A stretch of 64,000 bases of DNA, from the NCBI RefSeq assembly GCF_964204645.1, contig NC_134031.1, forward strand, positions 9,152,501 to 9,216,500. The letters run 5' to 3'. Below, one piece after another: positions 6,582-57,447 of the stretch; the first letter of the stretch is position 1; every line of letters begins with the position of its first letter. Both the position numbers and the translations under genes were made by a program. Source of the stretch: Tubulanus polymorphus. Taxonomy: Eukaryota; Nemertea; Palaeonemertea; Tubulaniformes; Tubulanidae. The notes under the pieces were generated by a model that searched no databases, was not told where the DNA came from, and saw only the letters and a program-made list of their open reading frames with translations.

Positions 6582-8089
6582 ATAAATTGCCCATGGGCAA
6601 AGTGTGGTTTACCTTGAAAGCTAGAGGTTGGTTGGAGTAAGGGCATTGCTTGAAAAATCTGTTTAATTCGTGACTTCAAAGTTCTACAAGTTTATATTGT
6701 ATTTTATCTTTTTTAAGATATATTTTGTACTCAAATAAGACCACAGATATACATTTGTTTACGGTCCACGTCCAAAATTCCGTAGGGTACAGGTAGGTGC
6801 GGCAGGGAAACTATTTAAAAAAAAAATATTTTTCACAATATGAAAAAAAAATTCAAACAACGCATCCCAAAATAATTGTCTGTTTGCCGTAACACCGACT
6901 TAACTTCTCAGGAGGAGTCGGTAGGTAGATTTTTTTTTTTTGCTAAATTTTTGGGCAAAAGAAACAAATTTATCACCTTTCTTACATGGAAACGATGTCG
7001 CAAATCTACGTTGTGCACGGAAAATTTGTCTAATAGCGTAGATTTCAAGAATTATTCTAAAATTATAACTTCTTCCAGAGCGTCATCTCCGTGTCAAAAA
7101 TGGAACAGTACATTGAATATATGCGCGCTTTTACCAGCTTCAATTTAGTCACTATTAGAATGAATGGCAGCTTATTGGAACACTGCCAGTTTCCTGGAAA
7201 ACTTAAACTAGGCCACATGTCAAGGCATGTTTTCACAGATGCACATTTGACTTCAAACATACGTAGCTCATACATCGGCAGTGGGTCGGTCGGTCGGCCG
7301 TTTTTATCAAAAATGAAATTTATTTCAATGAATCCCAGAAAAAAGTTTTCACTCGGTACCATTGAAATCGGGTCGGTGGGGTTACGGCTACAGACCATTA
7401 TTTTGGGAAGGCCTAAAAACCCATACGGTATGATGTTACATATCAGAGGTTAGCTGAATATTGAGTCTTGGAAACCTCTTCCAATGTATGGCCGCGGAAG
7501 CTTTTACCGGTACAGAATAAATCGGCTATTAGATCGTTTTAAATCCTGGAATTTACTACTACAATATTCAGACCTCGGCAGACCTCATAGTTTGCTGCTT
7601 AGTATTTTCAGGTCACAAGAAATTATTACAAATTCTATCAAACCGATCTTCTGCTACGATTATTCAGCCTATTTTCATGTCAAACGTGCACGCGTTACAG
7701 CATCACCGTTAGTGAAATTCGCACGTATACGGTACCTAGTCCAATGAAACGTACGCCATTCTATGGCTTTCCCATAATTAATTTAGTAGCAGAATTCCCC
7801 GTATATCCCAAAAACAGCCAATCCCATTCGCTCGTAGAGACGACGCCCCCAATCGATGTCATTGCAATTTTATACGCGAGAGCTAAGAATTTCCCGCCAA
7901 AAAAAGTTTTTCGTAGAATTTTAACTCAGTTGACCATGTCAGCGACGGAGGTTCGCCATGTCTTCAATCGCATCGATTCTACGTCGTATTAGCCGAGAAC
8001 CAATGAAACAAATGCTCACATAAAAATACGTTCAGCGATTTTACATGGATTGGCTCAATGCCAACATCATATCGCTGACAAAGGTAAAC
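6582..8089. mobile_element. Insertion of about 1.5 kb in Polinton B PolB
   Basis: PolB homology breaks between the codons for LLYY and NEHYMW. The insert has a different base composition and no convincing gene; ORFs inside it lack domains. GGTTTACCTT near its left end and AAGGTAAACC near its right end are a 10-bp inverted pair. It contains the MITE-like unit at 6864-7409. Whether it is one element or several is unclear. Confidence 0.6.
6864..7409. mobile_element. MITE-like element, about 37-bp imperfect inverted ends
   Basis: Left TCCCAAAATAATTGTCTG with GCCGTAAC-rich sequence after it. The complement of the right end (7371-7409) reads TTCCCAAAATAATGGTCTG followed by the same type of sequence. 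Length 546 bp, no coding capacity. This is a non-autonomous DNA transposon by structure; superfamily not determined. Confidence 0.65.
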
Positions 8090-10383
8090 CAAAAAGATGA
8101 AAATGAACATTATATGTGGTTAAAACAAATTGATTTATTCTTTAGAACAGAAAGTGATCATCATCGTAAAATTTATCTATGTAGAAAATGTTTATCTAAA
8201 TTTATGACTGAGAATGCATTATTAAAACATAAAGAATTATGTGATAATAAAGATTTTTGCAAATTAATAATGCTAACAGAAAAAGATTATAAATTGAAAT
8301 TTACTAATCGTAAATTTAAGAATATAGTGCCATTTGTAATTTATGGGGATTTTGAATCGTTGAATATAAGAATTAACTGATCAAGATAGAAAAGAAATAT
8401 ATAACAAAAAGCAATTTTCAAAATCAATGGAACTAAATGAAGATATAATTCAAGACCCACCAATTATAAATACAATTAAAAAAGTTCATGAAAGAGCTGC
8501 TGCTTATGGAATTTATATAAAATCAAATTATCCTGAATTATATGAAAGTCAATATATTTCTTTTAGAGGTGAAGATGTAGTTAATGATTTTTGTAACAAA
8601 ATAATTGAATTAGAAAGTGATTTTATTAAACAAACATAAAAGAATAGTTATGACAAAAGAAGATGAAATTGATTTTAATCAAGCAACTCATTGTTGTGAT
8701 TGTGAAAAACGTTTTTATTCATTTGATTAAAAAGTTAGAGATCATGATCATTTAAATTCAAAATATCGTGGAGCTGCTCATGAAGATTGTAATTTACGAG
8801 CTAAAAAAGTAAATTTCGTACCAATATTATTTCATAATTTATCAGGCTATGATACTCATCTATTTATAAAACAATTATCAGGAAAATTAGGCGCAATTAA
8901 TCAAGAAATAGAAGAATATAATGCTATGAATGATTTAAATGTAAAAAAAATATGATTTTAAACTATTAGCTAAAACATCTTAAAATTACATTTCATTTCA
9001 ATTTGGTTGCATTAGATTTTTAGATTCTTATAGATTTTTAGCAAGTTCATTAGATAATTTAGCAAAAAGTTTAGTTGATAAAGATTTTGTAATAACTCGA
9101 CATTATTACCCAAATGAACAAGATTTTAAATTATTGAGATATAAAGGCGCAATTCCTTATTCATTTTATAAAACACATGATGATTTTAATGTTACAGAAT
9201 TATTAAAAGAACAATTTTATGATCAATTAAAAGAGGAGTATGTGAAAGATGAAGTTTCTAATAGAACATTAAATATTTGGAATCATTTTAAGATAGAAAA
9301 TCATGGTGAATTAGTAGATTTATACTTAAAATCAGATGTTATGATATAGGCTGACATATTTGAAAAATTTAGAGAAGTTAATTTAAATCATTTTAATGTT
9401 GATCCTTGTTATTGCTACTCTAGTCCTGGTTTAACCTGGCAATGTGGTTTAAAATATACAAATGTAGAATTGGATTTATTAAAAGAACCAGACATGGTTT
9501 TATTATTTGAAAAATCAATTAGAGGTGGAATTAGCGGTGTTATGGGAGATTTTAAAGCAAATGATGAATATAGATTATTGTATATTGATGTTAATAATCT
9601 ATATGGTTGGGCAATGATGCAACCTCAACCATACAAAAATTTTATATTAACAGAAGTTGAAAATGATGATAAAACTAATTGGCAAAGCGCAATTATGAGT
9701 TTAGAAGAAGAAGCACCAATTGGTTATTTCTTTATAGTTGATTTAGAATATCCCGATTACATAAAGTTTAAAACAAGAAATTTACCTTATTGCCCTGGAC
9801 ATTTAGCTGTAGATGATAGTTATTTAAGTGAATACCAGAAAAAAAATAAAACCGAAAGATCATGTTTCTTCAGAAAAATTGATATTAACACAAAATAATA
9901 AATATAATTATATTGTCCATTATAGAATGTTAAAATTTTATCTAAAGCAAGGAATGAAATTAAAGAAAGTAAATAGATATATTGAATTAAATCAATCGAA
10001 GTGGTTAGAAAAATATATAGATTTCAATACTCAACAGAGAACAATATCTAAAACAGATTTTGAAAAAGATTTTTTTTAAATTTATGAATAATAGTTTTTA
10101 TGGAAAAACATGTGAAAATATTAGAAATAGAAATGATATTGAATTAGTAAATAATTCTGAACGATTAAGACATTTACAATCAAGTCCTAGACATTTAGGA
10201 AATACAAGATTTTGAGATTATTTAACAGCAGTAAAATTAAAAAGAACATCAATGAAATTTAATAAACCTGTATTTATTTGTTCAACTGTTTTAGAAGTAT
10301 CAAAATTATTAATGTATGATTTTTATTATAATGTTTTACAACCACATTTTGGGGAAAAGCATATTGAAATATTATATTTTGAT

Positions 10384-11422
10384 TCTGTTACAGCTGACAC
10401 CCCAATATTATTAAAATATAATGATAAAATATTGATAAGAAGAATTTCAGAAATAATTCCAAAGCAAAATGAACGTTATGTTTCATATGGTGAAAAAGAA
10501 TTAATACAAATAAATGAATTAATGGATGTTTGGGCAAGAAATGAATGGAAAGAATTAAAGAATATTAGGCATAAAACAAATAAGAAAATCTATAGAGTTA
10601 GAACTAGGATTTGTTGATGTTACAGAAGATCATAGTTTAATTAGAAAAAAATGGTGATGAAATAGAACCAACTGATGCAAAAATTGGTGATGAATTATTA
10701 CATAAAAGATTTTACCCAAGAACGAATCATATGTCATTTGATGAAATAATTGATAATATTTATAACATAGAACCTGAAACATTAGAAGAAAAAGAATATT
10801 TTATTAAAGGATTTTTATGGGTGTGTATAATTATGTTAGTCGCACTCAATATTGTTGGTATTTATGCAATCAAGACTTGAAATTATTAGAAAGAATAAAG
10901 AAATACTGTGAAGAAGTTTATTCGCAAAAAGTTTTTAAAATCATAGATGTTATGAAATCATCACAATGTTATAGAATACATGTAAATAATCCTAAAGATT
11001 TTGCTATAAAATTTAATGATGAATTCTATATTCATGCAATAGTGAAAAGTAATACTTCAACAAAAGAAAAGATAGTGCCAGATTATGTATTAAATGCAAA
11101 ATATAATTTAAGAAAATGGTTCTTTGGATTCTATGCTGCAGATGGCACTAAAAAATTTATAAAGGATAAAAAGATAACCTTTGCACAAAAAGGAAAAGTT
11201 GTTATATCAGGATTAAATCTATTATGCAATTCATTAGGTTTTAATATGAATATCGGATTGATTAAATCTAAACTAAATTGTTTTAATCTAAGGCATACAG
11301 AAAAAGAAATAACTGAGGAAGTTAAAGATTTATTTGAAACATCCAACCCAATTGACTATGTTTATGATTTATCAACTGAAGATGGCACATTTAACTGTGG
11401 ATTTCCATTAATTTGCCTCAAT
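10384..11422 (+). other. Intein with LAGLIDADG-type homing endonuclease in PolB motif C
   Basis: The insertion lies between Asp and Thr of the polymerase motif YFD-TD. The N-terminal splice block starts with Ser (SVTADTPILL), and a block B-like TEDHSL lies near 10620-10640. A first endonuclease block remains as FIKGFLWG (near 10803, damaged), and a second is WFFGFYAADG (near 11120). Splice block F is VYDLSTEDGTFNCG (near 11363), and the last residue is Asn followed by the extein Thr+1 (CLN/TD). The penultimate residue is Leu rather than the usual His. Frameshifts near 10600, 10650 and 10815 mean that it can no longer be made whole. The other PolB copies in the window lack it. Confidence 0.92.
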
Positions 11423-11935
11423 ACTGACGCCTACATACTAAAAATCAAAACAAATGACATAACAAAAGACTTTAAGAAACATTAAAACATCATTTTGACT
11501 TTAGCAATTATCCAAAAGATCATGAATTATTTAGTAATGATGATAAAGAAATTCCTGATAAGTTTAAAGATGAATTAGGGGGTGATGAAATGATTGAATT
11601 TGTTGGGGTAAGAAGTAAAATGTATAGTTATAGAACAAAAGATCACGAAGCTAAAAAGTTAAAAGGAATAACAGAGCATGTGGTTGATAAACATATAGAA
11701 TTTCAAGATTATATAAAGTGTTTATATAACTCAATTGTAATGAAACATAAAATGAATTGTTTATGATCAGAAGATCACGAGATGTACATTAATGAATTTG
11801 AAAAAAACTAGTTCGATGATAAAAGATATATTTTGGGTGATGGAATAAAAACATTACCTTATGGTTATTAAAAAATAAAATCAATATCATCATACTCGAA
11901 ATCACTACTGGTTTCTTCATTTTTTGACGCCTTAT

Positions 11936-16107: not shown

Positions 16108-16716
16108 ATGAATAAGGAATTATTTATATTTGAGCCTTATAATATGTTAATTTCTGGCGTAACAAATTGTGGAAAAACTTATTTTATATTAAATTTATTA
16201 GAAACTGTTTATAAAAACTATATTGATAATATAGTATTATTTTGTCCAACATATGGATTTAATCAAACTTATGATAGAAATATTACTAGAAATAATAAAT
16301 TTATTATATTAGATCCTAAAACAGTAAAAGAAAATTTAGATAATTGTATTAAAATAGCAATAGATATTTATAAAGGATCAAATACATTATTCATTATAGA
16401 TGATTGCGCAAATTTACAAGATTCAAAAGTGAGAGAAAGTGAGTTATGTTATCTGGCTTTCTCTGGGAGACATTTGGGGATAACAACATGGGTTTTAAAT
16501 CAAAAATATAATTCAATTGTTAAAGACTTTAGAGAAAACATTAGATTTCTAGTTTTATTCTACAATAAAGACAGAAAATCGATGAAAATTGCACTTGAGA
16601 AAAATGATATTATTCCACATGATTTACATAATGAATATATGGATAAATTGAAAAATATTAAAAGATCAAAATTACTATTTAGATTACAACACCCATTTAA
16701 ATATGAATTTATTTAA
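16108..16716 (+). CDS. ATP: Genome-packaging ATPase (FtsK/HerA, A32-like), intact
   Basis: 202 codons, uninterrupted. Walker A GVTNCGKT at residues 17-24; Walker B LFIIDD at residues 94-99; AFSGRHLGITTWVLNQKYNS follows, the usual sensor-like region of this family (SRHxxI). Polinton ATPases of this type pump DNA into capsids. Starts in ATATAAATGAAT, directly after the integrase tail. It is the only intact ATPase in the window; the copy at 55710-56336 is frameshifted. In an otherwise decayed element, the open frame may be chance or late loss of function. Confidence 0.93.
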   Translation: MNKELFIFEPYNMLISGVTNCGKTYFILNLLETVYKNYIDNIVLFCPTYGFNQTYDRNITRNNKFIILDPKTVKENLDNCIKIAIDIYKGSNTLFIIDDCANLQDSKVRESELCYLAFSGRHLGITTWVLNQKYNSIVKDFRENIRFLVLFYNKDRKSMKIALEKNDIIPHDLHNEYMDKLKNIKRSKLLFRLQHPFKYEFI

Positions 16717-22929: not shown

Positions 22930-23719
22930 GTATGTTTATCTTTTACCGTAATTTTAATGTCTCTCTACCCTCTAGTCTTGTTTTCTGTTCTATCTATCTA
23001 GACCTATAGTACAGTATAATAACTTATACGCTGATGAGTGTTGTGTTAAGAAAACACTTGTCGTGTTGACATATGGCCTCGCACATAGCATATATACACG
23101 AGTACGAATAAGCCTTCCTGTATGTACTGTTTTTCGATATGATCGTATGCCTATAGGCTAATACATGCAGGCGCGCGTCACCGGAATTACAGATATTATT
23201 GGGGCAAACCACTTCAATTTATTTCAGCGAAATCACATATTCCGACATAAGCAAGGCTATTTTGAATGAAATATGAAGCAAAGAGACCAGAAATTCAATC
23301 CGAGCTAAATGAATCCGAGACTGATATGGATCCGACATAGGCGGAGTCTACTGTAGTATTTACTTTCGAAACTCTTCTATCACTGAACTGCTTTTAATGT
23401 AGTAAGTATTTTATGTTCATACAGTCTGAAAGTCCGTCTGGACTTTCTGACTGCATACTTAATACCAAAACATATTTTTGGTGGGTGTGCAACATGCTTT
23501 TGTCTCTTTCACTTATTGCTTTTTGACTTAATGTTTTTGTCTAATACTCCATATAACATGTATATTTTTGATAAAGGTTATTGGGATCATTACACAGCAC
23601 AAATGTGGTGTCGATTAGTTCACATAAAAAATATGCTAATTATTTGAATATAGGAACATTTAAAGTTGTGGAAAATTTTTGTCCATTGTAAATGTGTGGA
23701 CTCATTGGCATATATATAC
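22930..23719. other. No gene recognised; one small hairpin
   Basis: Nothing coding is convincing. At 23422-23453 CAGTCTGAAAGTCC pairs with GGACTTTCTGACTG across a 4-base loop with one mismatch pair. Confidence 0.45.
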
Positions 23720-23720
23720 C

Positions 23721-24470
<750 letters not shown>

Positions 24471-28008: not shown

Positions 28009-31000
28009 TTATTGTTCCTCCACGGGAAGTAATACAGCTATTCTAGTGATTGCACGCTGATACGATCCGGTCGCTGTTTTTACTTCTACATTTCGAATAA
28101 GTCCATCATCGCTCGGAAATACATGTGATATTCGACCCTTACACCATTTACTACGGATCGGATTCGGTTCATGGAGTAACACGATATCCCCCACTTTCAC
28201 ATCACGTTTCGCGGTATAATCCATTTCCTCCGTGGAGCAAGATGAGGAAACACGTCTCGATACCATTTTTTCCACAACGCATCAACGATTTTTTGACAAT
28301 ATTCTACGCGATGTCTCGGATTTCGCGTCTCGGCAAATGGACCATGCGGTACGTCATCGGATGCTCTGCCCAACAAAATTCCGTTCGGACAAATGTAACT
28401 GCCATCATTTGGATCACTGGACTTCACTCCAATCGGCCGTTCGTTAACGAGATTTGCTACTTCAAATATAATAGTTTGAAGTTCAAACGGCGCATGTACT
28501 TGTTCTCCAATCACAATTTTCAAATTCCTTTTAACGGATTTCACCAACGCTTCAGCGCAACCGTTCTGATGCGGCCCTAACGGTGTAATGAACTGCCACG
28601 AGATTTCGCGATTTGCGCACCAGACCCGAATTTCCTTCTGTGCAGCTACTAGTTGAGACCCATTGTGACTCAACATCGATTCCGGTTTTCCTCTTACAGA
28701 TAGAAAACGTCGAAAGGTTTGAATAAATTCCTGTGCTGAGTATCAAGCGCGATATCGCAATACACTGCACGAGTCGCGAGACAGGTGAAAATAACACCCC
28801 AAACTTTCATTGTTGTCATTCGCTTGATTCGGACGTTAAACGGTCCAAAAAGATCGCATGCGGTGTGTTGAAACGGAGGGCTCGGATTCAGACGAATACT
28901 CGGAAGGTCAGCCATGTGCTGATCCTCCACTTTTGCACACATTTCACGACAAAATAAACAACTGCGCACTACCGATTTAGCTAACCGATTCAATCCGATT
29001 ATCCAGAATCCTCGTCGCACCTTCGCGGTAGTCGCTGCAACTCCAGGATGACCACATCGATGCTGATGTTCCACGATAAGTTTCGATATGAAATGATCCT
29101 TTGGTAATAGAACGCGATGTTTCTGATCATAAGCTACATCAGCGTTTCCAAGTCGACCTCCCACTCGGATAATCCCTGCAGAATCTACAAACGGCGATAA
29201 TTTCCGAAATTCCACTTCATATTTCCGATTTCTAACTTCGGTTTGTGACAATTTCACGATTGTGCTTTTCGCGCACTTTAATTCGGCTGCAGTAACTTCT
29301 CCCGTTTGAATTTGTTCTTTCTTATTCCGAACTCTCGCCTGCGAATTTTTCACAAATCGAAGAACCATTGCAGCGAGGCGTATCAGACGATTCAACGTGC
29401 TAACTTTCTGCAACGCACTTATCTCGAATCTTGGTTTTGTGACCATAACGCACCCTAGTTTTTGTTCGGAATCATTTATCTCGGTTGTTTCGGTAGGATA
29501 CGACACTGGCCATACATCTTTCGGTTGACGCATAAATTCTGGCCCACAAACCCAGCGAACATCTTAACCGGATTCATTGATTCCACGGCTAATATCATCG
29601 GCCACATTCTCAGTCGACGGACAATGGCCGTAATAACTACGCTCAGTTTTAGACAGAATTTCTCCGACCCTATTCGCAACAAATGTTTTATACACCCGCG
29701 AGTCATTCTGAATCCACGAGTAAGCAATCATCGAATCAGTGAAAATGTGAACATTCTTGATCTCAAGTCTCGATTCAACCTTGATAGTCTCATTAATTCT
29801 ACAGCCCAATACCAATGATTGTAGTTCTTTTCGTGGATGACTTATCGTATCGACTTTACCAACGCAAACTTTATCCCCACCTTTCCATCTCCACATATCC
29901 AACGTTAATATGCAACACTCCCGAAAGCGACATTTGATGCATCACAGACAATGACAAGGTATGAATCTGACGCATTTGCCGGAGTTAGACATCGATCAAA
30001 CTTCCGTGTTCCCAGCTTACGAATTTCCTCGATCCATCTTAACCATTTGTCTTGCATCTTCTCTGGTATCGGTTGATCCCAATCAAGATTTTCTCGCCAT
30101 AATTCCTGCAATCCGATTTTCCGTTTAACAATGGCAGGCGCACCAAATCCGAATACATCATAAATTCCTGATATAATCGCTGTTATACATCGTTTTGTGA
30201 GAGGTAGAGTGACACTGGATGGTATGGACATATGAATTGAGATCTTATCCTCGTCTCGATACCAAATGACTCCGAGCACTTTCTCAACGTTGTCTTCATT
30301 GTTGTCTTCATCCTCCCCGGCCCGATAATTGTGCATTCGAGTACCAATGCTTGATCTGGAAATGTCCCGATTCCAAAATTTGATCGATCTCACATCTTCG
30401 TTTTTCTAAATCGAAAACGGTATTCACACTATCTGCGATGTCATCCGTATATCGACATTGCTTAATCGTTGCGACGGCATCTGGATACTGTGTTTTATAT
30501 TGATCCGCAGTCATATCCATTGCAATATTTGTGAGAGCTGGTGACGATACATCTCCAAATGTTAAGACCATTTTGACGTAAATATCTGGATCACGATTCG
30601 ACTCATAATTTCGCCATAAGAATCGATGCGTTTGAGTATCGATACCTGGGCTAACGAGAACTTGATGGTACATCTTTTTGACATCTCCGACCAATACATA
30701 CTCTCTTTCACGCCAGCGAATTAACACTCCGCGTAAATTGTTGAGATGATCACCGCATTTACTCAAATAATCATTGATCACATGACCTTTATAGTTCTCA
30801 GCTTGATTGAAAACCATACGACACGGATGAGTTGGTTTATCTGGTCGCACTACTGCATGGTGACTCATATAATGAACAGGCCCACGATAATTTTCGATTT
30901 CTTCTGCCGTGATTTTCTTTGCCGAACCCGAATTCACTAATTGCTCAACTTGCTCATTATAAATCTCAGCCAATTTCGGGGATTTCTGCAATCGTTGTTC

Positions 31001-31226
31001 CGCGCAATTTCGCAAACGCTTGATAATAATTATCTGGTAGCTGATTTGGATCCTTTTTCCACGGTAACGGAATTTGCCACCGATTTCCGATTCGAATAGC
31101 GGACGAACGAATCTCTAATTCTTCTTTCCCTTCGATCGCAGTTTTGATTTTTTCGCCCAGTTGTCTTTCTTGACAGCACCAGTTCAAACAAACGCCCATT
31201 TCTTCGGTTTCCCAGAATCTCGACAT
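28009..31226 (-). pseudogene. BEL/Pao retrotransposon pol remnant
   Basis: In reading order from 31226: the pre-RT region (RFWETEEMG, LPDNYYQAFAKL); reverse transcriptase with RMVFNQAENYKG, VGDVKKMYHQVLV, FGDVSSPALT and the catalytic box RYTDDIADS (30966-30308); a connection (IYDVFGFGAPAIVKRK); RNase H (IVCDASNVAFG, then HIFTDSMIAYSWI, NVADDISRG; 29905-29564); integrase zinc finger (HQHRCGHPG with CLFCREMC); catalytic core start (ACDLFGPF; near 28870); GPHQNGCAEALVKSVKR (near 28570); and a C-terminal GDIVLLHEPNPIRS-W-KGR domain (28275-28009). At least five frameshifts. The second integrase Asp is His (SHNGSQL). No gag, protease or LTR found. The upstream side stops at about 31250, near Polinton end sequence. 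Confidence 0.9.
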
Positions 31227-31732: not shown

Positions 31733-34700
31733 ATGGAAGCAAATAAGTACTACTGTTCAACATGTAAAATCAACATAGATAAATCTCTAACAGCAAGACA
31801 CAATAAAACTAAAACACATTTAGAGAATAAATTGAAATTAGAATATGAAGATGATATATTAGAAACTAAATTAGATAAATTAAAGAATGAAAAAGAAACA
31901 TACAAAAGTGGTACATGTAATCAATCATTCAGTGATAAAAGATATTATAATGAACATTTAAAATCTAAAAGTCATATTAGAAATATGAATAATGATATTT
32001 TAGGTGAAGATTATTTTGATCATGATAAGAAACATAAGACAATTAAAAGAATAAGAAATAAATTAAACAATAAAAGACCATACATGGAAGATGTAAGAAA
32101 TTATATTAATTCATTAGATAATAAAAAAGATATAGAAATAACTGAAGCATTTAAAAGTGATATTGGTCCAGCAGCTATTGAGTTTAAATTTCATAAAGGA
32201 AAAACATTAGAAGAAAATAAAAAACATTTAGAAAATATGAAAGATATAATAAAAATAATTACAGATGTTGAATACCCTAAAATTAGTATATCTTCTAAAT
32301 TAAAGTTTATAAAATCTGAAGATAAACCAATATATAATATAAATTCTCATTCACAACATATTATATCTAAACAACATATAGATGATAAATTAGATAAATG
32401 TTATAATGAAGTAAAAACTAAAATGGAAGAGAAATATTTTGAAGGATCAGGTTTAATATTTGATGAAATAATATTTATGACTTTACATGTTTATAACACA
32501 GAATATAATAAGTTAACTATATCAAAACCAATTGATGAAATAATGTATCATATTATAAAGAACCAGATATTGAAGCATCGAGTTATATTAAACTTCCATT
32601 TAAAACTAATGCTGTAATAAATGTACAAAATTTTGATGATTAATGTTTTCTATGGACAATTATAAGTTGCTTACATCCAACAGAAGATATTACACATAGT
32701 TTTAGATTAACACATTATAAACCATTTGAAAATAATTATAAGATATATAATTATCCTGTTAGAATTAAAAATATCCCAAAAATAGAAAGAGATAATAATT
32801 TAAGAATAAATGTATTTGATTTAATCAAATTACCAAATACAAAAGGTAACAATATAAAACATTATACATTAGAATCTTTGTATTTATCAAACGATTATGA
32901 TTCAAATGGTGTTATAGATATATTATATAATGAGAATCATTATATGTGGATTAAACAAATAGATTCATTCTTTAGAACAGAAAGTGATCACCATAATAAA
33001 ATATATCTATGTAGAAAATGTTTACATAAATTCAGTAATGAAAGTACATTATTAAATCATAAACAATTATGTGAAAATCATGATTATTGTAAATTAGTTT
33101 TACAAAATGAAAAAGATAAAATATTAGAATTCAAAAAATATGATTACAAAAATAAAGTACCATTTGTAATATATGGAGATTTGAATCATTAAATAAAGAA
33201 CTAACTGATCAAGATAGAAAAGAAATACATTATAAAAGAGAGAAATTAAATTCTAATGAAAATGATTTTTCAGATGAACCACCAAAAACAAATACTATTA
33301 AAAAGATTCATCAATCAGCTGCAGCTTTCGGATTATATATATAATCTGATTATCCAGAACTAATTGAAAGTGAATATTATCATTACAGAAATGAAAATGT
33401 TATCAATCATTTTTGTGACTTATTAATTGAATATGAAATAAGATTTAGTAAATTATTGAATACAAATAAAGAAAGTATAATGACAGAAGAAGATAAAGAA
33501 GCATTTGAGTTTGCAGATAAATGTTATTATTGTGAAAAGATATTTAATTATAAAGATAAAAAAGTAAGAGACCATGATCATTTGAACGGAAAGTTTAGAG
33601 GCGCTGCGCATGAGAATTGTAATTTGCAAGCAAAGAAAATTAATTTTGTACCAGTTATATTTCATAATCTATCAGGATATGATGCACATTTATTCATCAA
33701 ACAGTTATGCCATAAAATAGAAGAAATCAATAATGAAATAGAAAGATTAAATTCAAATAGATCAAAAGATAAAATACCAACTTATAAATTTAAAATGTTA
33801 GCTAGAACATCTGAGAATTATATATCATTCCAATTTGGGTGTTTAAGATTTATAGATTCATATAGATTTTTAAATAGTCCATTAGATAACTTATCAAAAT
33901 CATTAGTTGATGATGAATTAAAAATATTAAAGCAACACTATCCAAATAATGATGATTTCCAATTAATGAGATATAAAGGAGCAATTCCATATTCTTTCTA
34001 TAAAAATCATAATGATCTTAACATAACTGAATTATTAAAAGAACAATTCTATGATGAATTAAAAAATGAATATGTTAAAGATGAAGTATATAATAGAACA
34101 TTGAATATTTGGAATCATTTTGGAATGAAAAATCATGGACAATTAGTAGATTTATATTTAAAATCAGATGTATTATTATTATCGGATATATTCGAAAGGT
34201 TTAGAGATGTAAACTTAAAATATTTTTTAACATTGATCCTTGTCATTGTTATTCATCACCAGGTTTAACATGGGATTGTGGTTTAAAATTTACAGATATA
34301 AAAATGGATTTGTTAACAAATATATATCAATTATTATTATTTGAAAAATCTATAAGAGGAGGAGTTTCAGGTGTATTAGGCGATAGATATTTCAATGTAA
34401 ATGATAATCCTGGATATAAGTTATTATATATAGATGCAAATAATTTGTATGGTTGGGCAATGATGGAACCACAACCTTATGGAGTATTTGAAATAAGTGA
34501 AGTTTTACAACATGAAAATAATGACAAATTTGATTGGAAGAAAAGGATTCTAGATATTGCAGATGATTCAGATACTGGTTACTTTTTTGTTGTAGATTTA
34601 GAATATCCTGAACATATTAAATTTAAATCTAGAAATCTAGCATACTGTCCCGAACACAAAACTGTAACGCATGAAGAATTATCAAATTATCAAAAAAGAA

Positions 34701-35766
34701 TTAAACCCGAAAATCATATTCATACAGAAAAGTTAATGGTAACTCAGGAAGATAAATATAATTATGTAGTACATTATAGAATGTTAAAGTTTTATCTAAA
34801 ACAAGGAATGATCCTAAAAAAGTACATAGATATATTTCATTCAGTCAATCTAAATGGTTAGAAAAATATATATATTTTAACACCAAACAGAGAACTAAAG
34901 CTAATACTGATTTCGAGAAAGATTTCTTCAAGTTAATGAATAATGCATTCTATGGTAAGACTTGTGAAAATATTAGAAATAGAAATGATATTGAGTTAGT
35001 TAGTAATGGCAAAAGGATAAGGCATTCACAAACATACCCTAAATTTATAGGTAACAGAATATTTGATGAAAATTTAGCCGCAGTTAAAATGAGAAGAACA
35101 TCTATGAAATTTAATAAACCAATTCATGTTGGAGCATCAGTTTTAGAAATATCAGAATTATTAATGTATGAATTCTATAAAAATGTGTTACAACCTCATT
35201 TTGGAGAAAAACATATAGAAATCTTATATTTTGATACTGACAGTTACATATTAAAGATAAAAACTAATAACATAACAGATGATTTAAAAACATTAAAACA
35301 TCATTTTGATTTCAGTAATTATCCTAAAGATCATGAATTGTTTAGCAATGATAATAAAAAAGTTCCTGGTAAATTCAAAGATGAATTAGGTGGTGAAGAA
35401 ATGATAGAGTTCATAGGAATTAGATCTAAAATGTATAGTTATAAAACCAAAACTCATGAATCAAAGAAATTGAAAGGAATAACCAAAAGTGTGGTAGAAA
35501 AGAATATTCATTTCAAAGATTACATCAATTGTATATTCAATGAAGAAGTTAGAAAACATAAGATGAAATGTTTAAGATCAGAAGATCACGAGATGTTTAT
35601 TGAAGAAATTGAAAAGGTTAGTTTGAATCCATTTGATGATAAAAGATATATTTTAGATGATGGAATTCATACAGTTGCATATGGTTGCAATTTAGATGAA
35701 TACTTAGAATTTAAAAGAGAAGAAACAAAAGAGAACGAGATAATGAAAAGAATTCTAACGTGTTAA
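31733..35766 (+). pseudogene. POLB: Polinton PolB, full length but broken (remnant D)
   Basis: Best full-length guide to the polymerase, about 1,345 codons if unbroken. N-terminal C2H2-like fingers (YYCSTCKINIDKSLTARH, then a second whose first Cys is Ser here: KSGTCNQSF). A later YLCRKCLHKFS finger. Exo I YGD(F)ES near 33172; Cys/His cluster KVRDHDHLNGKFRGAAH near 33560; Exo II HNLSGYDAH near 33664; YLKSDVLLLSD near 34156; motif A DANNLYGWAMM at 34433; motif B NNAFYGKTCENIRNR at 34939; motif C YFDTDSY at 35227-35247. No intein. Breaks: frameshift near 32540, stop at 32641, base loss near 33182, stop near 33343, frameshifts near 34225 and 34820. The 117-aa gene follows after 29 bases. Confidence 0.96.
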
Positions 35767-35795
35767 TCAAATTTTAATAAAAATATGTATTATAA

Positions 35796-36149
35796 ATGGA
35801 GAGTAAACAAGCAAACAGTGAGAACAACAAATTATTTCTAGATAGAATAAAAGATACTTCAAATGTCAAATCAGTAGATTATAAATTTAAGAAGTTAAAA
35901 GAATTAATAATCCATAAGAAATATCTAATTACAAATATTGATACAGTTACTAACAAATATGGAGATAAATTAGTTATACACTTAGAATATGAAGGATTAA
36001 AAGGAAATACATATAAATTCAGAACATATTTACCAGATAGATTTCATAGATTATCAAGTGAAGATCTAGAAGAATTATGTTCTGGAGATTTCTATTTCGT
36101 ATACAAAGGTAAGAATGAAAAGGGGCACCATGAAATAAATTTCGAATAA
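35796..36149 (+). CDS. 117-aa conserved Polinton protein (remnant D)
   Basis: Intact, starting MESKQANSENNKLFLDRI. Conserved C-terminal half with YKFRTYLPDRFHRLSSEDL and FVYKGKNEKGHHEI, shared with the 108-aa protein at the right end of Polinton B. No Cys cluster and no membrane span. It begins in TATTATAAATGG, 29 bases after the PolB stop, on the same strand. An identical protein is encoded at 43774-44127 in the inverted copy. No named family is recognised; a nucleic-acid-binding accessory factor is a guess. Confidence 0.8.
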   Translation: MESKQANSENNKLFLDRIKDTSNVKSVDYKFKKLKELIIHKKYLITNIDTVTNKYGDKLVIHLEYEGLKGNTYKFRTYLPDRFHRLSSEDLEELCSGDFYFVYKGKNEKGHHEINFE

Positions 36150-38398
36150 GAAAATATGTAAAGATATAGCTGCAAAGGAGCGATGTAAAGCCATTCAGAA
36201 TGATGGGAATTGTAGTAAATTGAAATATCGATACATAGAATAAAATGCATTGACAGATTCGAACCTAATATGCAACCACTGTGTAAACGTCAAATATGAT
36301 TCAGGACGTACAATCACAAATATTAATATATTTGACCAGGCATTTATTTTGGCATTCAAACATCATGATACTGTATTATCACCATCCTTAAAAATGGATC
36401 TGTCCTATTAAGAACTCATCTTAAGCACCTGCTGAGCCGATAGATTGAGTGAATTCACAGATAAGAACGTATCATGATTTAGAATAGATTTAATAAGTAA
36501 ATGTTTTTATTGAAATATTTGAATAAATACATATATTGTAGTGTAGATTCAATCAATAACTTATGAATTGATTTGGTCTGGGTTTCCGGCTGATGTTGAT
36601 TTTGGCTTTTATGGATTACAAATTCTATAGTGATAAACAATTGATACCTGCAACATGTGTGTAAATCAAACCTATTCCACAAGTTCTAATAAATGGGAGA
36701 GTCACTCTTGATCTGAGTTATTAGAACTAGGGGTCCAAGACACCATGCCCACTTGGGAAGTGGTTCAAAATGCTCAACAATCTAACAATTCAGGTATCAA
36801 AGGTATAAAACATCCCTTTTCAAAGAATACCCATCACAAACTGCAATGAGAAATGGCAAACTCAGAATTCGGGCCAAAATTGACATTTTTGGACACTAAA
36901 AAAGGTCATAGGACGGCCATCTTGAGTCCGTATCCCAATTTTTGTTATGCTAATGGGCCCAGGGGACATTCACATATATCCGAAAGATCAAGGTAATTGA
37001 TCAAAGCATCTTCAAAATTTCCCTCAAAAAGTTCAAAAATGTGTAAAAAGTGTTGATTTTGGCGAATAACAATGGCTGCCAGTCGGCCATCTTGATTCTG
37101 ACAGGGCCAGTTTTTGGGCTGAAGATGTGTCTAGGGTAGATACATGTGTAACCCAAATATCAAGACATTACATTGAAGCGTCTTCAAAACTTCCTAAAAT
37201 AACTGATTTCCGTCTACGGACGGATGGACGACGGGCGAAAAGTGAACGCAATAGCCCGCTGGGACTAAAGTCCCAAGTGGGCTTAAAATAATGTTCATTT
37301 AGTTATAGAAATTCATTGCCTTTTTGGAGTTTCTGTAATAATATTTGTTCTGCCCTAATTTTTATTACTGCATGAACCAATGATATGCTTTGTAAATATG
37401 ATGTAATAAAATAAATTTGAATTAAAAATTTGAACATGAGAATCAAGCATAACTTGTGTTTTTTCAACTTGTCTTACTTGTCTTTTGTTAACAGTTCCAG
37501 AGTTTCAATTACAATCAAATCCAAATTGGCTAAAAAGTACATAGGACTAGATGAAATGAACCGTTAGTTACTGCAAACCTATTCCAGTGTTATGTCGATC
37601 GTGTTGAATCACTTTCCTTGAGTTAAAAGAATCAGATCTTCTATGGTACAACATCGGTCGAAGAGAGATATCTTGGTGTTGACGGTCCTTGACCATCTAA
37701 CTTCATGCGTTTGACATTGGAATCGGCATCATACCCATTTGAACTGCAAAATATTCATACAACATGAAAACCTACAGTACATGTATACAGTAATCAAACT
37801 TTCACCGATGTTGGATATTTGAATGAACATTAGGTTTATTTCAGTATTCTATAGCAGGAAATAATAAGCCCAATCAATAGGCCCTATTCCCATTGGAACA
37901 ATTGTATAATGCGTACAGCTGTACCGTACACTTATCAGTCAAGAATGGAGAAATCGGTATACCAAACCTACGAACAGCAAAATGTACAGGCCTACAATGA
38001 TTTCTGGTATACAAGCCGTGACCACATGAACGTTTTGGTTTGACTAATAATGTCAGCAGGTCAGAGAAGGCCTGGCAAAACTTAATCACATGGCTCAAAT
38101 CAATTAGCCTTTCTGCGTGTTAATATTTCACTGTATTGTTTTAAAAATAGGCCTATCGAGTGAATTAGTACATAGACTGAATTAGACTTTAGGCTAGTCC
38201 TGACCAAATCCTATCCATGTTATAATGGCACCAGTTAGGCCCTATAGTAACATCACTGGAGGGCCGACAAGAGGGAAAAAGTTGTGTTTGTAGTACATAG
38301 GCATGGTAGGCTTGTCGTACTCACGTAATACTTAAAACGCTGTTGTTACCTGTACGTGACTGTACGGTGATTTCTACAGGTTAGCCGTATGTGAGTAC
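36150..38398. other. Flanking DNA between Polintons D and C, no gene
   Basis: Similarity to the Polinton late region stops at 36150 (compare 47476), then non-element DNA. It contains the MITE-like unit 36747-37282. The ORFs here (for example 36479-36682 and 37874-38098) are repeated identically in the inverted copy only because the DNA is duplicated. Confidence 0.6.
36747..37282. mobile_element. MITE-like element with GCCCACTTGGGA ends
   Basis: GCCCACTTGGGA at 36747 and its complement TCCCAAGTGGGC at 37271-37282 bound 536 bp. CTGGGACTAAAGTCCCAAG near the right end is a further palindrome. Two GGCCATCTTGA words lie in the middle. Noncoding. A second copy lies at 42641-43176 inside the right arm. 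Confidence 0.65.
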
Positions 38399-38404
38399 GT
38401 TGAC
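38399..38404. repeat. Target-site duplication GTTGAC, left of Polinton C
   Basis: GTTGAC directly before AGTAATAGGG. The same six bases follow the right end at 60936-60941. Six-base duplications are the norm for Polintons. Confidence 0.85.
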
Positions 38405-38593
38405 AGTAATAGGGATAATAGGCTTTCATACCAAAGGTCGAAAGGTCGAGCTCGTAAAAAATGGAAATAACAATAATTTACAGTTGAATTAGTCGCGCAC
38501 ACTCCTAATTCAACTGTAAATTATTATTATTTTCATTTTTTTACTCACTCGCCCCTTCAACCTTTGATATGAAAGCCTATTATCCCTATTACT
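38405..38593 (+). repeat. Palindromic terminal repeat of Polinton C, left
   Basis: 189 bp that is itself a long imperfect palindrome: AGTAATAGGGATAATAGGC at one side and GCCTATTATCCCTATTACT at the other, with TTTACAGTTGAATTAG and CTAATTCAACTGTAAA flanking a 12-base centre. Copies at 41325-41513 (-) and 60745-60935 (-), and an eroded one at 31318-31477. Confidence 0.9.
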
Positions 38594-38826
38594 CTTAAAA
38601 TATTCATATATATGAATAAAATATAAATGAATAACATATATAAGTAACGAGTAATTAACGAGCTCTTATAGAATAGATATAAAAGTATATATTTACAACA
38701 TTATTTCAATATTCATATTTGTGTGAGTTAGTTAAACATTAAAATGTTAGTAAAGTGTGATTGAAATAATTCATATATAAATCATTGAACTTCTAAAATC
38801 AATTTAAAAAAAAATTTGATATTAAA
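38594..38826 (+). promoter_or_regulatory. Leader of PolB in Polinton C
   Basis: AT-rich spacer between the terminal palindrome and the PolB ATG at 38827. Most of it is repeated at the right end (60567-60744) in inverted orientation, so the terminal inverted repeat is at least about 365 bp long. Promoter role inferred from position. Confidence 0.55.
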
Positions 38827-39937
38827 ATGGAAGCAAATAAGTACTACTGTCCAACATGTAATATCAATATAGATAAATCCCAAAAAGCAAGACACAATAA
38901 AACTAAAACACATTGAGAATAAATTGAAATTAGAATATGAAGATGATATATTAGAAACTAAATTAGATGAATTAAAGAATGAAAAAGAAACATACAAATG
39001 TGATACATGTAATCAATCATTCAGTGATAAAAGATATTATAATGAACATTTAGAATCTAAAAGTCATATTAGAAATAAGAATAATGATATTTTAGATGAA
39101 GATTATTTTGATAAAGATAATGATAAGAAACAGAAGACAATTAAAAGCATAAAAAATAAATTAAACAATAAAAGACCATACATGGAAGATGTAAGAAAAT
39201 ATATTAATTCGTTGGATAATAAAAAAGATATAGAGATAACCGAAGCATTTAAAAGTGATATTGGTCCAGCAGCTATCGAGTTTAAATTTCATAAAGGAAA
39301 AACATTAGAAGAAAATAAAAAACATTTAGAAAATATGAAAAATATTATAAAAATAATTACTGATGTTGAATATCCTAAAATTAGTATATCAGTTAAAGTA
39401 AAGTTTATAAAATCTGAAGATAAACCAATATATAATATAAATTCTCATTCACAACATATAATATCTAAACAACATATAGATGATAAATTAGATAAATGTT
39501 ATAATGAAGTAAAAACTAAAATAGAAGAGAAATATTTTGAAGGATCTGGTTTAATATTTGATGAAATAATATTTATGACTTTACATGTTTATAACACAAA
39601 ATATAATAAGTTAACTAAATCAAAACCAATTGATGAAAATAATGTATCATATTATAAAGAACCAGATATTGAAGCATCGAGTTATATTAAACTACCATTT
39701 AAAACTAATGCTGTTATAAATGTACAAAATGAAGATGATAAATGTTTTCTATGGGCTATAATAAGTTGTTTACATCCAACAGAAGATATTACACATAGTT
39801 TTAGATTAACTCATTATAAACCATTTGAAAATAATTATAAGATAGATAAGTATCCTGTTAGAATTAAAAACATCCCAAAAATAGAAAGAGATAATAATAT
39901 AAAGATAAATGTATTTGATTTAATCAAATTACCAAAT
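38827..39937 (+). pseudogene. POLB: PolB N-terminal part (Polinton C, left)
   Basis: Begins MEANKYYCPTCNINIDKSQ, frameshifts near 38914 (one base lost), then stays open from 38924. The second finger is complete here (YKCDTCNQSFSDKRYYNEH). CFLWAIISCLHPTEDITHSF lies near 39740. Homology ends at the codons for KLPN, where the inverted duplication begins; the following codons to 40003 are junction sequence. The tail of this gene may be 46855-47092. Confidence 0.92.
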
Positions 39938-40136
39938 ATTACTTATTATGTAAACATTTTCTACATAGATATATTTTATTATGGTGATCACTTTCTGTTC
40001 TAAAGAATAAATCTATTTGTTTAATCCACATATAATGATTCTCATAATATAGTATATCTATAACATCGTTTGAATCATAATCTTTTGATAGATATAAAGG
40101 TTCTAATGTATAATGTTTTATATTGTTACCTTTTGT
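39938..40136 (-). pseudogene. POLB: Spacer of the inverted duplication; PolB on the minus strand
   Basis: 39945-40136 reads on the minus strand as the PolB continuation (ENHYMWIKQIDLFFRTESD region) that is missing from the left arm. The junction 39938-39948 (ATTACTTATTA) is not PolB-like. So the copied segment was longer than what is left on the left arm. Confidence 0.85.
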
Positions 40137-41090
40137 ATTTGGTAATTTGATTAAATCAAATACATTTATCTTTATAATATAAAGTCTATTTTTATAATGA
40201 GTTAATCTAAAACTATGTGTAATATCTTCTGTTGGATGTAAACAACTTATTATAGCCCATAGAAAACATTTATCATCTTCATTTTGTACATTTATAACAG
40301 CATTAGTTTTAAATGGTAGTTTAATATAACTCGATGCTTCAATATCTGGTTCTTTATAATATGATACATTATTTTCATCAATTGGTTTTGATTTAGTTAA
40401 CTTATTATATTTTTATAACATTTATCTAATTTATCATCTATATGTTGTTTAGATATTATATGTTGTGAATGAGAATTTATATTATATATTGGTTTATCTT
40501 CAGATTTTATAAACTTTACTTTAACTGATATACTAATTTTAGGATATTCAACATCAGTAATTATTTTTATAATATTTTTCATATTTTCTAAATGTTTTTT
40601 ATTTTCTTCTAATGTTTTTCCTTTATGAAATTTAAACTCGATAGCTGCTGGACCAATATCACTTTTAAATGCTTCGGTTATCTCTATATCTTTTTTATTA
40701 TCCAATGAATTAATATATTTTCTTACATCTTCCATGTATGGTCTTTTATTGTTTAATTTATTTTTTATGCTTTTAATTGTCTTCTGTTTCTTATCATTAT
40801 CTTTATCAAAATAATCTTCATCTAAAATATCATTATTCTTATTTCTAATATGACTTTTAGATTTTAAATGTTCATTATAATATCTTTTATCACTGAATGA
40901 TTGATTACATGTATCACATTTGTATGTTTCTTTTTCATTCTTTAATTCATCTAATTTAGTTTCTAATATATCATCTTCATATTCTAATTTCAATTTATTC
41001 TCAATGTGTTTTAGTTTTATTGTGTCTTGCTTTTTGGGATTTATCTATATTGATATTACATGTTGGACAGTAGTACTTATTTGCTTCCAT
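40137..41090 (-). pseudogene. POLB: PolB N-terminal part in the right arm
   Basis: Starts at 41090 and is open over 40397-40993 after the same early frameshift as at 38914. A deletion near 40410 and another near 40180 remove codons that are present in the left arm. Copy of 38827-39937. Confidence 0.9.
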
Positions 41091-41324
41091 TTTAATATCA
41101 AATTTTTTTTTTAAATTGATTTTAGAAGTTCAATGATTTATATATGAATTATTTCAATCACACTTTACTAACATTTTAATGTTTAACTAACTCACACAAA
41201 TATGAATATTGAAATAATGTTGTAAATATATACTTTTATATCTATTCTATAAGAGCTCGTTAATTACTCGTTACTTATATATGTTATTCATTTATATTTT
41301 ATTCATATATATGAATATTTTAAG

Positions 41325-41513
41325 AGTAATAGGGATAATAGGCTTTCATATCAAAGGTTGAAGGGGCGAGTGAGTAAAAAAATGAAAATAATAATAATTT
41401 ACAGTTGAATTAGGAGTGTGCGCGACTAATTCAACTGTAAATTATTGTTATTTCCATTTTTTACGAGCTCGACCTTTCGACCTTTGGTATGAAAGCCTAT
41501 TATCCCTATTACT
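41325..41513 (-). repeat. Palindromic Polinton end inside the right arm
   Basis: Copy of 38405-38593 in inverse orientation, followed by GTCAAC, the complement of the left target-site copy. It is a by-product of the duplication and not a separate insertion. Confidence 0.9.
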
Positions 41514-44127: not shown

Positions 44128-44156
44128 TTATAATACATATTTTTATTAAAATTTGA

Positions 44157-52822: not shown

Positions 52823-54069
52823 ATGAGTGGGAGTTATATCAATCCTTCTAAGAATCATAGAATGTCTAATGCTATTAAAGCAGAAAGATCACATCATATA
52901 ATTACTCATAACCCTTCTAATATTAATCCTGATGAAACTTTATATATTAGAATCCCTCGATTAACACAAAATACTTTTTATGTTCCAAATAGTATTTATT
53001 TGTCAGCCGATATAAAAGTAATTGGTCATGATAATAATTATGTTGTTGATAATGTTGGAAGATATTTGATCAAAGAATTAACTATAAAGATTGGTCCAGA
53101 AACAGTTTTCTCATTAGATGATTATAATTTATTTATGCATTTTAAGGATTTATGGTTAACTAAAGAAAATAGAAATAATATGATATTTCAAGGCATCCAA
53201 TCAGAAAACCAAAATAAATTAAGATCAGGACTTAATGACGCAATAGTAACTCGTACCGCAGATAATTTGATAAAAAAGATTTATGGAAGCAAATATAAAA
53301 TTCCATAGACTTTGAATTGATAAATTATAATGTGCCTTTATATAAATACGCAATTCAAGAAGATGTTATATTCGAAATAACATTTGCTCCTGTAAATGAA
53401 ATTGTATTATCTAGCGTTGTTAAAGATATGGGTTATAAATTATCGAATATATGTTTAGAATATGACACAGTAACTGATGAAAATATTTCAAGTATAATTC
53501 AAACTCAATACAATCAAGGATTTTCATTATTATATGATTATATTGATAAATTTAAAACTGTAACTATTAATGCAAATGATGAAATAATTAATGAGAATAT
53601 TAACTTCCCAAGAAGATCTATTAAAGGTATATTAATATTTTTTACCATTGCAACATATTCTAATGTTGCAATACAGGTTGATAAGTATTATAATCCTGAA
53701 ATAACAAAAGTAGAAATAACTATCGAAGGAAAAGCAAATAAAATATTTTGTCAAGGAATGAGAATGATAGATCAATGGCCAGAAATTAGAAAACATTTTA
53801 TGAATGAAAAAGTGAAATCATCTGAAAATTGTAATATTAATCAAATTGATTATTATACCGGTAATAAATATGCATTGTGGTTAGATTTTAGAACAGCAGA
53901 GGATAATTCATTACATGGTTCTGGGAAAAAACTACAAAACACTAAAGATGGAATACAATTATTCATGACAAAGAAAAAAGGAAGTCTAAATTTCAAAATG
54001 CACATTTATATTATATCTGACGCGCAATTAAATATTGTAAATTCACAATTAGATAGTGTTATGTATTAA
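52823..54069 (+). pseudogene. Major capsid protein (double jelly roll), one frameshift
   Basis: Two open parts, 52823-53308 and 53317-54069, in different frames, together about 415 codons, a usual size for Polinton capsid proteins. Part 1: RIPRLTQNTFYVPNSIYLSA (beta-rich N-terminal strand set) and LIKELTIKIG. Part 2: the motif YALWLDFRTAEDNSLHGSGK, close to the L-D-R-S-x-D-x-x-x-H-G-S-G signature of Polinton major capsid proteins. Starts in GTTAAATAAATGAG behind a T7 run. Family call rests on this signature and position. Confidence 0.82.
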
Positions 54070-55709: not shown

Positions 55710-56336
55710 TTATTTTATAAATTTATATTCATATGGAAATTGTAATCTCAGTAATAATTTTGAACCTTTATTATTCTTTAATTAATTCATATATTCATCA
55801 TGTAATTCAGTAGGTATAATTTGATTTTCTTCCAATGATTGTTGCATAGATTTTTTATCTTTATTGTAGAATAAAACTAGAAATCTTATATTCTCCCTAA
55901 AGTCTTTAACAATTGAATTATATTTTTTATTTAAAAAACCCATGTTGTTATCCCGAAATGTCTCCCAGAGAAAGCTAAATGACATAACTCACTTTCTCTC
56001 ACTTTTGAATCATGTAAATTTGCGCAATCATCTATAATGAATAATGTATTTGATCCTTTATAAGTATCAATTGCTATTTTTATACAATTATCTAAATTTT
56101 CTTTTACTATTTTAGGATCTGATATAATAAACTTTTTCATCTTAACTATATCTCTATTATATGTTTTATTCATTTCATAAGTAGGACAGAATAATATTAT
56201 ATTATCAAAATGATTCTTATAAATAGTTTCTAACAAATCGCGGGTATTGTAACTCTATGAAATGTGTTTTACCACAATTGGTTACTCCAGTTATTAACAT
56301 ATTATGCGGTTCGAATATGAATAAATCTTTATTCAT
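55710..56336 (-). pseudogene. ATP: Packaging ATPase of Polinton C, frameshifted
   Basis: Walker A GVTNCGKT near 56275-56300 and Walker B LFIIDDCAN near 56030. About 20 extra bases (56235-56255 region) break the frame after the P-loop, another frame change lies near 55935, and an in-frame TAA sits at 55782, ahead of the homologous end KFIK at about 55710. The start (56336) overlaps the integrase stop by 8 bases (AATGAATAA). Compare the intact homologue at 16108-16716. Confidence 0.9.
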
Positions 56337-57441
56337 TTATTCTTTTAATTTTACTAGATAAAATCCATTCATTAAACTTATCACCGTATCCTTTATATTT
56401 CACCAAAGAATACTTTTTTCCTTCAAGAGTTTTTGTTTTCAATACTTTTTCTATTTTGTATTCTATTTCATCTGGATTTGGTACAAGTGATAATTCTTGT
56501 TCATAGAAATAACCTAATATTTCTTCATCTTTTAGATCTTCTAATTTATAAACAAATGGTTTAGTTAATATTATCTTTTTAATCTTGAATATTTCTTCAG
56601 TAAAATTTGGGGTATAACCTTTATAAAATGTTTTTCTATATTTAGATATTCTTACGTGTTGTCCAATTTTAAATTTAGGTTCTCCAAAATCATGTGTAAC
56701 AAATGCGCCATATAAATTATTCCAAACTATTTCCGAATTATCTTCTTTTCTAGCTAGTATAGGTTTCATATTTATAGAACTATGTTTAGAATTATTATAA
56801 CCTTTCACTAAATCATCTAACACATCGATATATTTATATGTTTCATTAGCAGTAAAATATTTCCACATTCTAGTTTTCAATGTTTTATTAAATCTTTCTA
56901 TAATAGATGCTTTTTTATCTGAATGTGTTGAAAAATAATCTACATCGTTATCAGACAATAGTTTTTTAAAATGTTTATTATAAAATTCCTTACCTTCATC
57001 AAATTGTATCTCATCTGGAATAGCTTCTTTAAATATTGATTTAAAAGCATTTGTTACTTCTATACCAGTTTTATTTTTGATTGGAATTGACCATGCGTAT
57101 CTACTGAATATGTCTATAACATTTAATATCCAGAAATATCCTTTGTCGTATTCTTCTAAGTTCTTCATGTCAATTAAATCTGCTTGCCATTGTTGATCGA
57201 TATATGAAACCATAACTTTTTTTGTTAAATAAGTTTTATCCATTTTCTTGTGGATTTGATATGTTGGTTGATTTTGTAACCATGATTTCAATTCACTATA
57301 TTTTATACCACCGTGTGGGTGCCGTACGGCACCATTTTCATTATCAGATTTAATTTTATTCCATAATTCTGAAACGTTAGAATATGATACTTCACTTTCT
57401 GGGTTATAATATAAATCTCTTAGATATTGTTCTTTTTTCAT
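56329..57441 (-). CDS. INT: Retroviral-like DDE integrase with chromodomain, intact
   Basis: 370 codons. DDE catalytic core: Asp88 in WQADLIDM, Asp148 in FDEGKEF, Glu182 in SIIERFNKT (33 residues between the last two). NYNNSKHSSIN-type sequence closes the core. The C-terminal residues from about 326 (YKIEKVLKTKTLEGKKYSLV, then KGYGDKFNEWI) form a chromodomain. Polinton integrases of this type insert the element and yield 6-bp duplications, as seen here. The start ATG at 57441 lies in AAGATGAAAA, without the TAAATG context. It is the longest intact gene of a known enzyme in the window. Confidence 0.95.
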   Translation of the reverse strand: MKKEQYLRDLYYNPESEVSYSNVSELWNKIKSDNENGAVRHPHGGIKYSELKSWLQNQPTYQIHKKMDKTYLTKKVMVSYIDQQWQADLIDMKNLEEYDKGYFWILNVIDIFSRYAWSIPIKNKTGIEVTNAFKSIFKEAIPDEIQFDEGKEFYNKHFKKLLSDNDVDYFSTHSDKKASIIERFNKTLKTRMWKYFTANETYKYIDVLDDLVKGYNNSKHSSINMKPILARKEDNSEIVWNNLYGAFVTHDFGEPKFKIGQHVRISKYRKTFYKGYTPNFTEEIFKIKKIILTKPFVYKLEDLKDEEILGYFYEQELSLVPNPDEIEYKIEKVLKTKTLEGKKYSLVKYKGYGDKFNEWILSSKIKRINE

Positions 57442-57447
57442 CTTATT

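Follow-up and report, generated by a model that had tools for sequence, protein, structure and literature searches.

The window analyzed here is a stretch of 64,000 nucleotides on contig C7 of a genome that was searched over 267.8 Mb and 77 contigs. It contains a decayed DNA polymerase B (PolB) gene of a Polinton, and motif C of this gene is split by an insert that carries the blocks of an intein and of a LAGLIDADG homing endonuclease. The features of the insert and of its host gene are as follows.

8024..11766, forward strand: decayed Polinton PolB gene, host of the intein, in open reading frame pieces with several stops and frame breaks
10384..11422, forward strand: intein insert, which splits motif C of PolB between Asp (YFD) and Thr (TDA), with the Ser codon at 10384 first
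10384..10413, forward strand: intein block A, SVTADTPILL, with Ser1
10619..10639, forward strand: block B, VTEDHSL (T and H of TxxH), in a frame that differs from that of block A
10800..10823, forward strand: remains of LAGLIDADG block 1
11117..11146, forward strand: LAGLIDADG block 2, WFFGFYAADG, which has one residue more in the whole copies
11360..11422, forward strand: blocks F and G, VYDLSTEDGTFNCGFPLICLN, with the last Asn at 11420-11422
11423..11431, forward strand: extein codons +1 to +3 (ACTGACGCC, TDA), hypervariable among copies

The host gene was matched by DNA_pol_B_2 (PF03175) at 1.2e-5 on positions 9350-9895 and at 0.012 on 8984-9346, both below the cut-off. The first-pass annotation, made from the letters alone, had placed the insert at 10384..11422, and these limits are right, from the Ser codon to the end of the Asn codon. 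The first piece of the insert was matched by TIGR01445 (intein_Nterm) at 2.6e-5 (25.1 bits, cut-off 24.5); Pfam gave no match to this 77-aa piece. A PDB sequence search with the 225-residue piece of the window intein had no hit with an E of 1 or less. The matches of LAGLIDADG_3 (0.078) and Staphylokinase (0.0011) to the broken copy were both below the cut-off, and the latter looks like chance.

The window copy was compared with nine copies of this genome that are whole. It matches their residues 1-77, 73-91, 89-147 and 154-355 in frames 1, 2, 3 and 2, which agrees with the three frameshifts reported before. The sequence MGDGSA (residues about 148-153), the core of LAGLIDADG block 1, is missing, and the window copy lacks the first catalytic Asp. 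Because of the three frame breaks and the lost core, the window intein is, judged by its sequence, a dead relic and inactive as it stands. The "two LAGLIDADG-like blocks" of the first reading hold for the family, but only half for the window copy.

The intein family in the genome

The genome was searched with the last 225-residue piece of the window intein. Among 567 candidates, 150 places were scored, all with E < 1e-109, and open frames of 1686-1690 aa were found at 11 of these 150. Motif-C junctions were counted by exact patterns, which miss diverged copies and include a few chance matches. The pattern for occupied junctions (YFD, then a codon for Ser, Thr or Cys, then VTA) gave 278 matches genome-wide and none in the reversed control. 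The pattern for empty sites, L-YFDTD, gave 562 matches, with 8 in the control; one of the 30 places fetched with it (L023) was not PolB. With the pattern YFDTDA alone, PolB was found in only 7 of 14 places.

Forty-eight loci were analyzed: of the 278 occupied places, the 40 that come first by coordinate (contigs C1 and C2), and the eight best matches of the 225-residue piece, the window copy among these. This sample is not spread over the whole genome. The intein copies among the first 100 listed (C1-C4) were mostly located mid-contig (between 12.6 and 22.4 Mb on the 32-Mb C1), as though Polintons were stored centrally.

The intein was whole in one frame up to the Asn/Thr junction in 9 of the 48 loci, with a length of 355 aa (352 aa in L069); the exteins were not whole in all nine. 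Profile models of Hint and LAGLIDADG matched all nine whole copies, in agreement with the initial identification of an intein with a homing endonuclease. The nucleophile at position 1 was Ser in all 48 loci, the window copy counted, under a search pattern that permitted Cys and Thr too. T83 and H86 of the TxxH in block B were invariant in the nine whole copies, as was the catalytic Asp of both LAGLIDADG motifs (D150 and D262). The C-terminal Asn was followed by Thr in the nine whole copies and in 38 junctions. Since the junction search required Asn-Thr-Asp (10 of the 48 loci gave no such junction), this conservation is partly by construction. The ratio of nonsynonymous to synonymous substitution rates (dN/dS) of the intein was 0.23 in six whole copies, versus 0.07 and 0.15 in the flanks, and that of the endonuclease part was 0.25 in the nine whole copies.

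The insertion lies between the D and T of motif C and is nearest to other polymerase inteins, as the PolB pol-c allele is defined. We conclude with high confidence that the insert is a real intein of the PolB pol-c site type. Elsewhere in the genome the family looks whole and mobile; the word "remnant", which had been applied to the insert, is correct for the window copy but understates the family.

Flanking sequences and the probable spread of the intein

With a probability of roughly 85%, we consider that a pol-c intein has been spreading in the PolB genes of these Polintons. This reading is based on the anatomy, the site, the relatives, the purifying selection and a co-conversion-like footprint. 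The intein, translated within the Polinton polymerase, would excise itself from the protein and join the Asp and Thr of YFD-TD, and the joined motif would leave the polymerase functional. The LAGLIDADG domain would cut the intein-free PolB of related Polintons at the same site, and repair from an occupied copy would write the intein and its near flanks into the cut copy. By this predicted route the intein would have spread in one PolB lineage, and it is present in a second.

The extein tree contained 76 of 85 copies, nine being omitted for decay or gaps. It showed two PolB lineages, A with 39 occupied and 5 empty copies and B with 30 empty and 2 occupied copies, and one single clade of occupied copies was rejected. 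Because the empty sample consisted of the first 30 L-YFDTD places and the YFDTDA places, these proportions are not genome-wide. Within lineage A, the flanks of the 5 empty copies were compared with those of 32 occupied copies in 60-nt windows (seven decayed or odd copies of the 39 were omitted). From -1020 to -360, empty and occupied copies differed by 0.3-3.2% per window, except for one window at 6.0%, where the occupied copies differ mutually by 5.2%. From -360 to the site the difference was 8-12%. From +1 to +126 it was 17, 9 and 11%, and beyond that no more than among occupied copies. Mutual differences of the occupied copies were 2-4.5% in the near flank on the left and 3-10% in that on the right.

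The near and distal zones of lineage A gave conflicting trees. Over 33 occupied and 5 empty copies, the distal flank tree requires 5 changes of intein state within lineage A, and the near-flank tree requires 1, with support 100/99. Such a footprint would be expected from an intein that moved with its near flanks by conversion. In L089 the intein is closer to lineage A (0.145) than the extein is (0.278); the distances for L068 are 0.202 and 0.297.

Several observations weigh against a spreading intein. If only branches with good support are counted, the distal tree forces no more than 2-3 changes. Mean distances over all pairs of 46 occupied copies were alike (intein 0.144, extein 0.160), and in the six whole copies dS was no lower in the intein (0.22) than in the upstream extein (0.18). 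Neither result is what one would expect from homing alone. Ordinary gene conversion between repeats could account for part of the footprint, and could have moved the intein with its near flanks. In 39 of the 48 copies, no frame runs through the intein to the C-junction. Finally, His precedes the last Asn in none of the 38 C-junctions located. The residue there is Lys, Val, Phe, Leu or Gln, and Val, Lys or Phe in the whole copies; block F also lacks the common His. The penultimate His is usual in class 1 inteins, not universal, and some inteins without it are active. One title cited in PMC8529194 mentions activity without the penultimate His, for DnaE. The whole copies are under selection (dN/dS as given above), which suggests that this intein may work without the penultimate His. 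The Leu at this position in the window copy had been read as a sign of death; the residues found in the 38 junctions and in the whole copies do not support that reading.

The intein might once have been mobile and now be a passive passenger of Polinton transposition, the flank discord being due to ordinary gene conversion between repeats. Such conversion is common, and the many broken copies, the dead window copy and the overall likeness of intein and extein distances would suit a passenger. However, both catalytic Asp residues have been kept in all nine whole copies, with the low dN/dS of the endonuclease. Moreover, the discord has the insertion site at its centre and ends sharply on the left, and two PolB lineages hold the intein. 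We regard a passenger as unlikely.

It is also improbable, by a slightly stronger judgment, that lineage A's empty copies once held the intein and that conversion from empty donors removed it. The change counts in the trees give no direction and are thus compatible with loss. However, while the left near flank is homogeneous among occupied copies, the five empty copies are mutually 6-12% apart there, and 10-33% from B. Since the occupied left flanks are homogeneous and the empty ones are diverse and not those of B, gain from one donor type explains the flanks better than loss. For the spreading intein, the sequence comparisons give us good confidence in homing and moderate confidence that the family may be active at present.

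A native insertion of the polymerase family, which is no intein, would also be in frame and under purifying selection in the whole copies, but it is refuted by the 562 motif-C sites that lack the insert by pattern, by the five empty copies of the same lineage, and by the splice blocks and the Hint match, so that we give it almost no credence. Contamination or an assembly artefact, with giant-virus or symbiont DNA as the source, is equally remote: such an intein is known in Mimivirus PolB (PMC549080), but the copies are diverged, lie in hundreds of places on contigs as long as 32 Mb and are not confined to small odd contigs, and the window also holds a BEL/Pao retroelement.

Variation at the C-junction and in the endonuclease

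The 9 bp after the intein took 12 forms in 31 occupied copies outside lineage B whose frames are open past the junction. Among the 86 windows tested in these occupied copies, this one of three codons varied most (sum of pairwise differences 2.37, median 0.33). It was also first of 86 in 27 empty copies outside lineage A, less clearly (2.01, median 0.52; next separate window 1.69). Some of the changes are synonymous (ACT/ACC/ACG, GAC/GAT). Codons 353 and 354 of the intein were more variable still than codons +1 to +3. In the 31 copies kept of 38, the AAT of the last Asn (Asn was required by the search, with AAC permitted), TAC at +4 and ATA at +5 were constant. The hypervariable stretch at the C-junction is about 18 bp long. 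It may reflect escape from cutting, tiny conversion tracts or repair at cut sites.

The variable residues of the nine whole inteins were enriched in the strands expected to read DNA in a LAGLIDADG protein (20/70 versus 31/285 in the rest, p 0.0005; within the endonuclease, 20/70 versus 14/141, p 0.001), the limits of these strands having been drawn from the model topology after the variable positions were seen. The variable strand residues sit in blocks that are shuffled among copies. The endonuclease type (QC or AV strand), typed in 32 of the 48 loci, was compared with the ACTGAC flank (10/11 versus 8/21, Fisher 0.0075); with only 2 independent pairs on supported branches, the apparent link may come from shared ancestry. 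We propose tentatively, and with more doubt than belief, that an arms race between the intein endonuclease and its Polinton targets may be running in an animal genome: the 9 bp would be recoded partly synonymously, the DNA-reading strands changed in blocks, and the penultimate His dispensed with, leaving codons free to vary.

Host Polintons, relatives and known systems

The other features of the window are listed below.

16108..16716, forward strand: Polinton packaging ATPase (Pox_A32, A32-like); PF04665, 7.6e-14
28197-31114, reverse strand: BEL/Pao retroelement; Peptidase_A17 (3.1e-22), RVT_1 and an integrase zinc domain
33345..35766, forward strand: pieces of a second Polinton PolB, without intein and with an Endonuclease VII-like domain
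35224..35244, forward strand: empty motif C site LYFDTDS of another Polinton PolB (exact pattern)
52823..53308, forward strand: capsid protein piece (Capsid_N); PF16903, 0.001, below the cut-off
56329..57447, reverse strand: Polinton integrase (rve); PF00665, 2.8e-9; Chromo PF00385, 5.1e-4, below the cut-off

Polinton genes (PolB, rve integrase, A32-like ATPase and capsid) are present in the window, spread over several copies, and may belong to other elements than the host PolB. BEL/Pao elements are not known outside animals, and the one in the window points to an animal host. The insect odorant-receptor family PF02949 gave 3 matches, which are no more than suggestive of the host. The first-pass annotation had counted four intein-free PolB copies in the window, whereas the exact pattern gives three empty motif-C sites (1657 and 35236 on the forward strand, 44687 on the reverse). 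The Endonuclease VII-type domain (PF02945, 1e-5) lies at 33345-34268, in the N-terminal half of the intein-free PolB, and may be a further nuclease insert in Polinton PolB. Polinton sequence also forms a near-perfect palindrome at 33725-46197, with inverted arms of 1238, 2350, 1510 and 721 nt that are 98-100% complementary. A long (AT)n simple repeat lies at 23700-23840.

Fifty proteins matched the intein at E 0.01 or better, and 20 of these were examined at the sequence level. P0001, P0006, P0009, P0011, P0015 and P0023 have Polinton-like PolB flanks; P0002 and P0004 share the termini but extend little beyond them. Seven of these eight (P0001, P0002, P0004, P0009, P0011, P0015 and P0023) reach the C-end, and all seven end in HN (VHN, AHN or IHN). 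The closest relatives, P0003, P0005 and P0008, show 66-73% identity over 45-58%. Lys precedes the last Asn in P0005 and in the PF00136-type P0021. The first pass had not known such inteins to be common in Polintons; the same arrangement in proteins from other sources does not bear out that they are rare. The clusters of P0001, with Polinton-type PolB flanks, and P0002 have 41 and 55 member sequences with the canonical VHN end, and from these sequences intein expansions seem to have occurred in other sources too. P0047 carries a related intein, also at a D/TD motif (WMD, intein ending LHN, TD), and received no polymerase domain call.

A quick tree of 26 rows set the Polinton-type rows apart by a branch with support 85, which is not strong, and several branches were long. 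No relative came up in IMG/VR when it was scanned with A1 and P0002. The AlphaFold model of the intein fits full-length inteins (top Z in the PDB, 2cw7), and five of its six best viral fold matches are named as DNA polymerases, from a phycodnavirus, Pandoraviruses, a Marseillevirus and a Megavirus, and the sixth has no name. Together with the Polinton genes of the window, this upholds the earlier description of a viral-type intein in a Polinton. An origin from large-virus polymerases is plausible.

The nematode Polinton pPolB inserts of Jeong 2023 reportedly carry HNH and VSR domains. Nuclease inserts in such elements are already known, because PMC11071308 describes diverse homing-endonuclease domains inserted in Polinton pPolB, with intein invasions suspected and Jeong 2023 cited, and PMC10583447 describes homing-endonuclease domains, LAGLIDADG included, in mitochondrial linear plasmids. 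In the open-licence literature, we found no report of a full Hint-LAGLIDADG intein at Polinton PolB motif C that occurs in hundreds of copies and bears a homing footprint.

According to PMC5784728 and PMC8529194, metazoan genomes contain no inteins, and both papers argue from this absence in favour of intein-inhibitor drugs. The 278 intein junctions in integrated virus-like elements of a probably animal genome would change that statement. A single genome that holds occupied and empty alleles by the hundred is a natural experiment, in which homing, co-conversion and target escape are measurable. An endonuclease in an intein in a Polinton would make a third layer of parasite, and one shared motif links the polymerases of large viruses and Polintons. 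We conclude that this is a known kind of intein in an unexpected host gene, and that the host itself is probably unexpected.

The pol-c intein of Mimivirus PolB, as described in PMC549080, shares the site (YGD/TDS), Ser1, the Asn end, Thr+1 and the LAGLIDADG motifs. The host gene distinguishes our intein from those of large viruses, being here a Polinton PolB (PF03175 type), and the PF00136 (DNA_pol_B) relatives show 26-51% identity, mostly over less than half of the intein. The archaeal Pol-2 intein PI-PkoII (2cw7), a polymerase intein ending in His-Asn, has the LAGLIDADG domain in common, but it is archaeal and has 537 aa. The nematode Polinton pPolB inserts are likewise nuclease inserts in Polinton PolB. 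The seven Polinton-type inteins that end in HN have the same kind of site and flanks, with 41-51% identity. They differ in that the penultimate His is present, and the +1 residue is Thr in five, Ala in P0001 and Ser in P0023.
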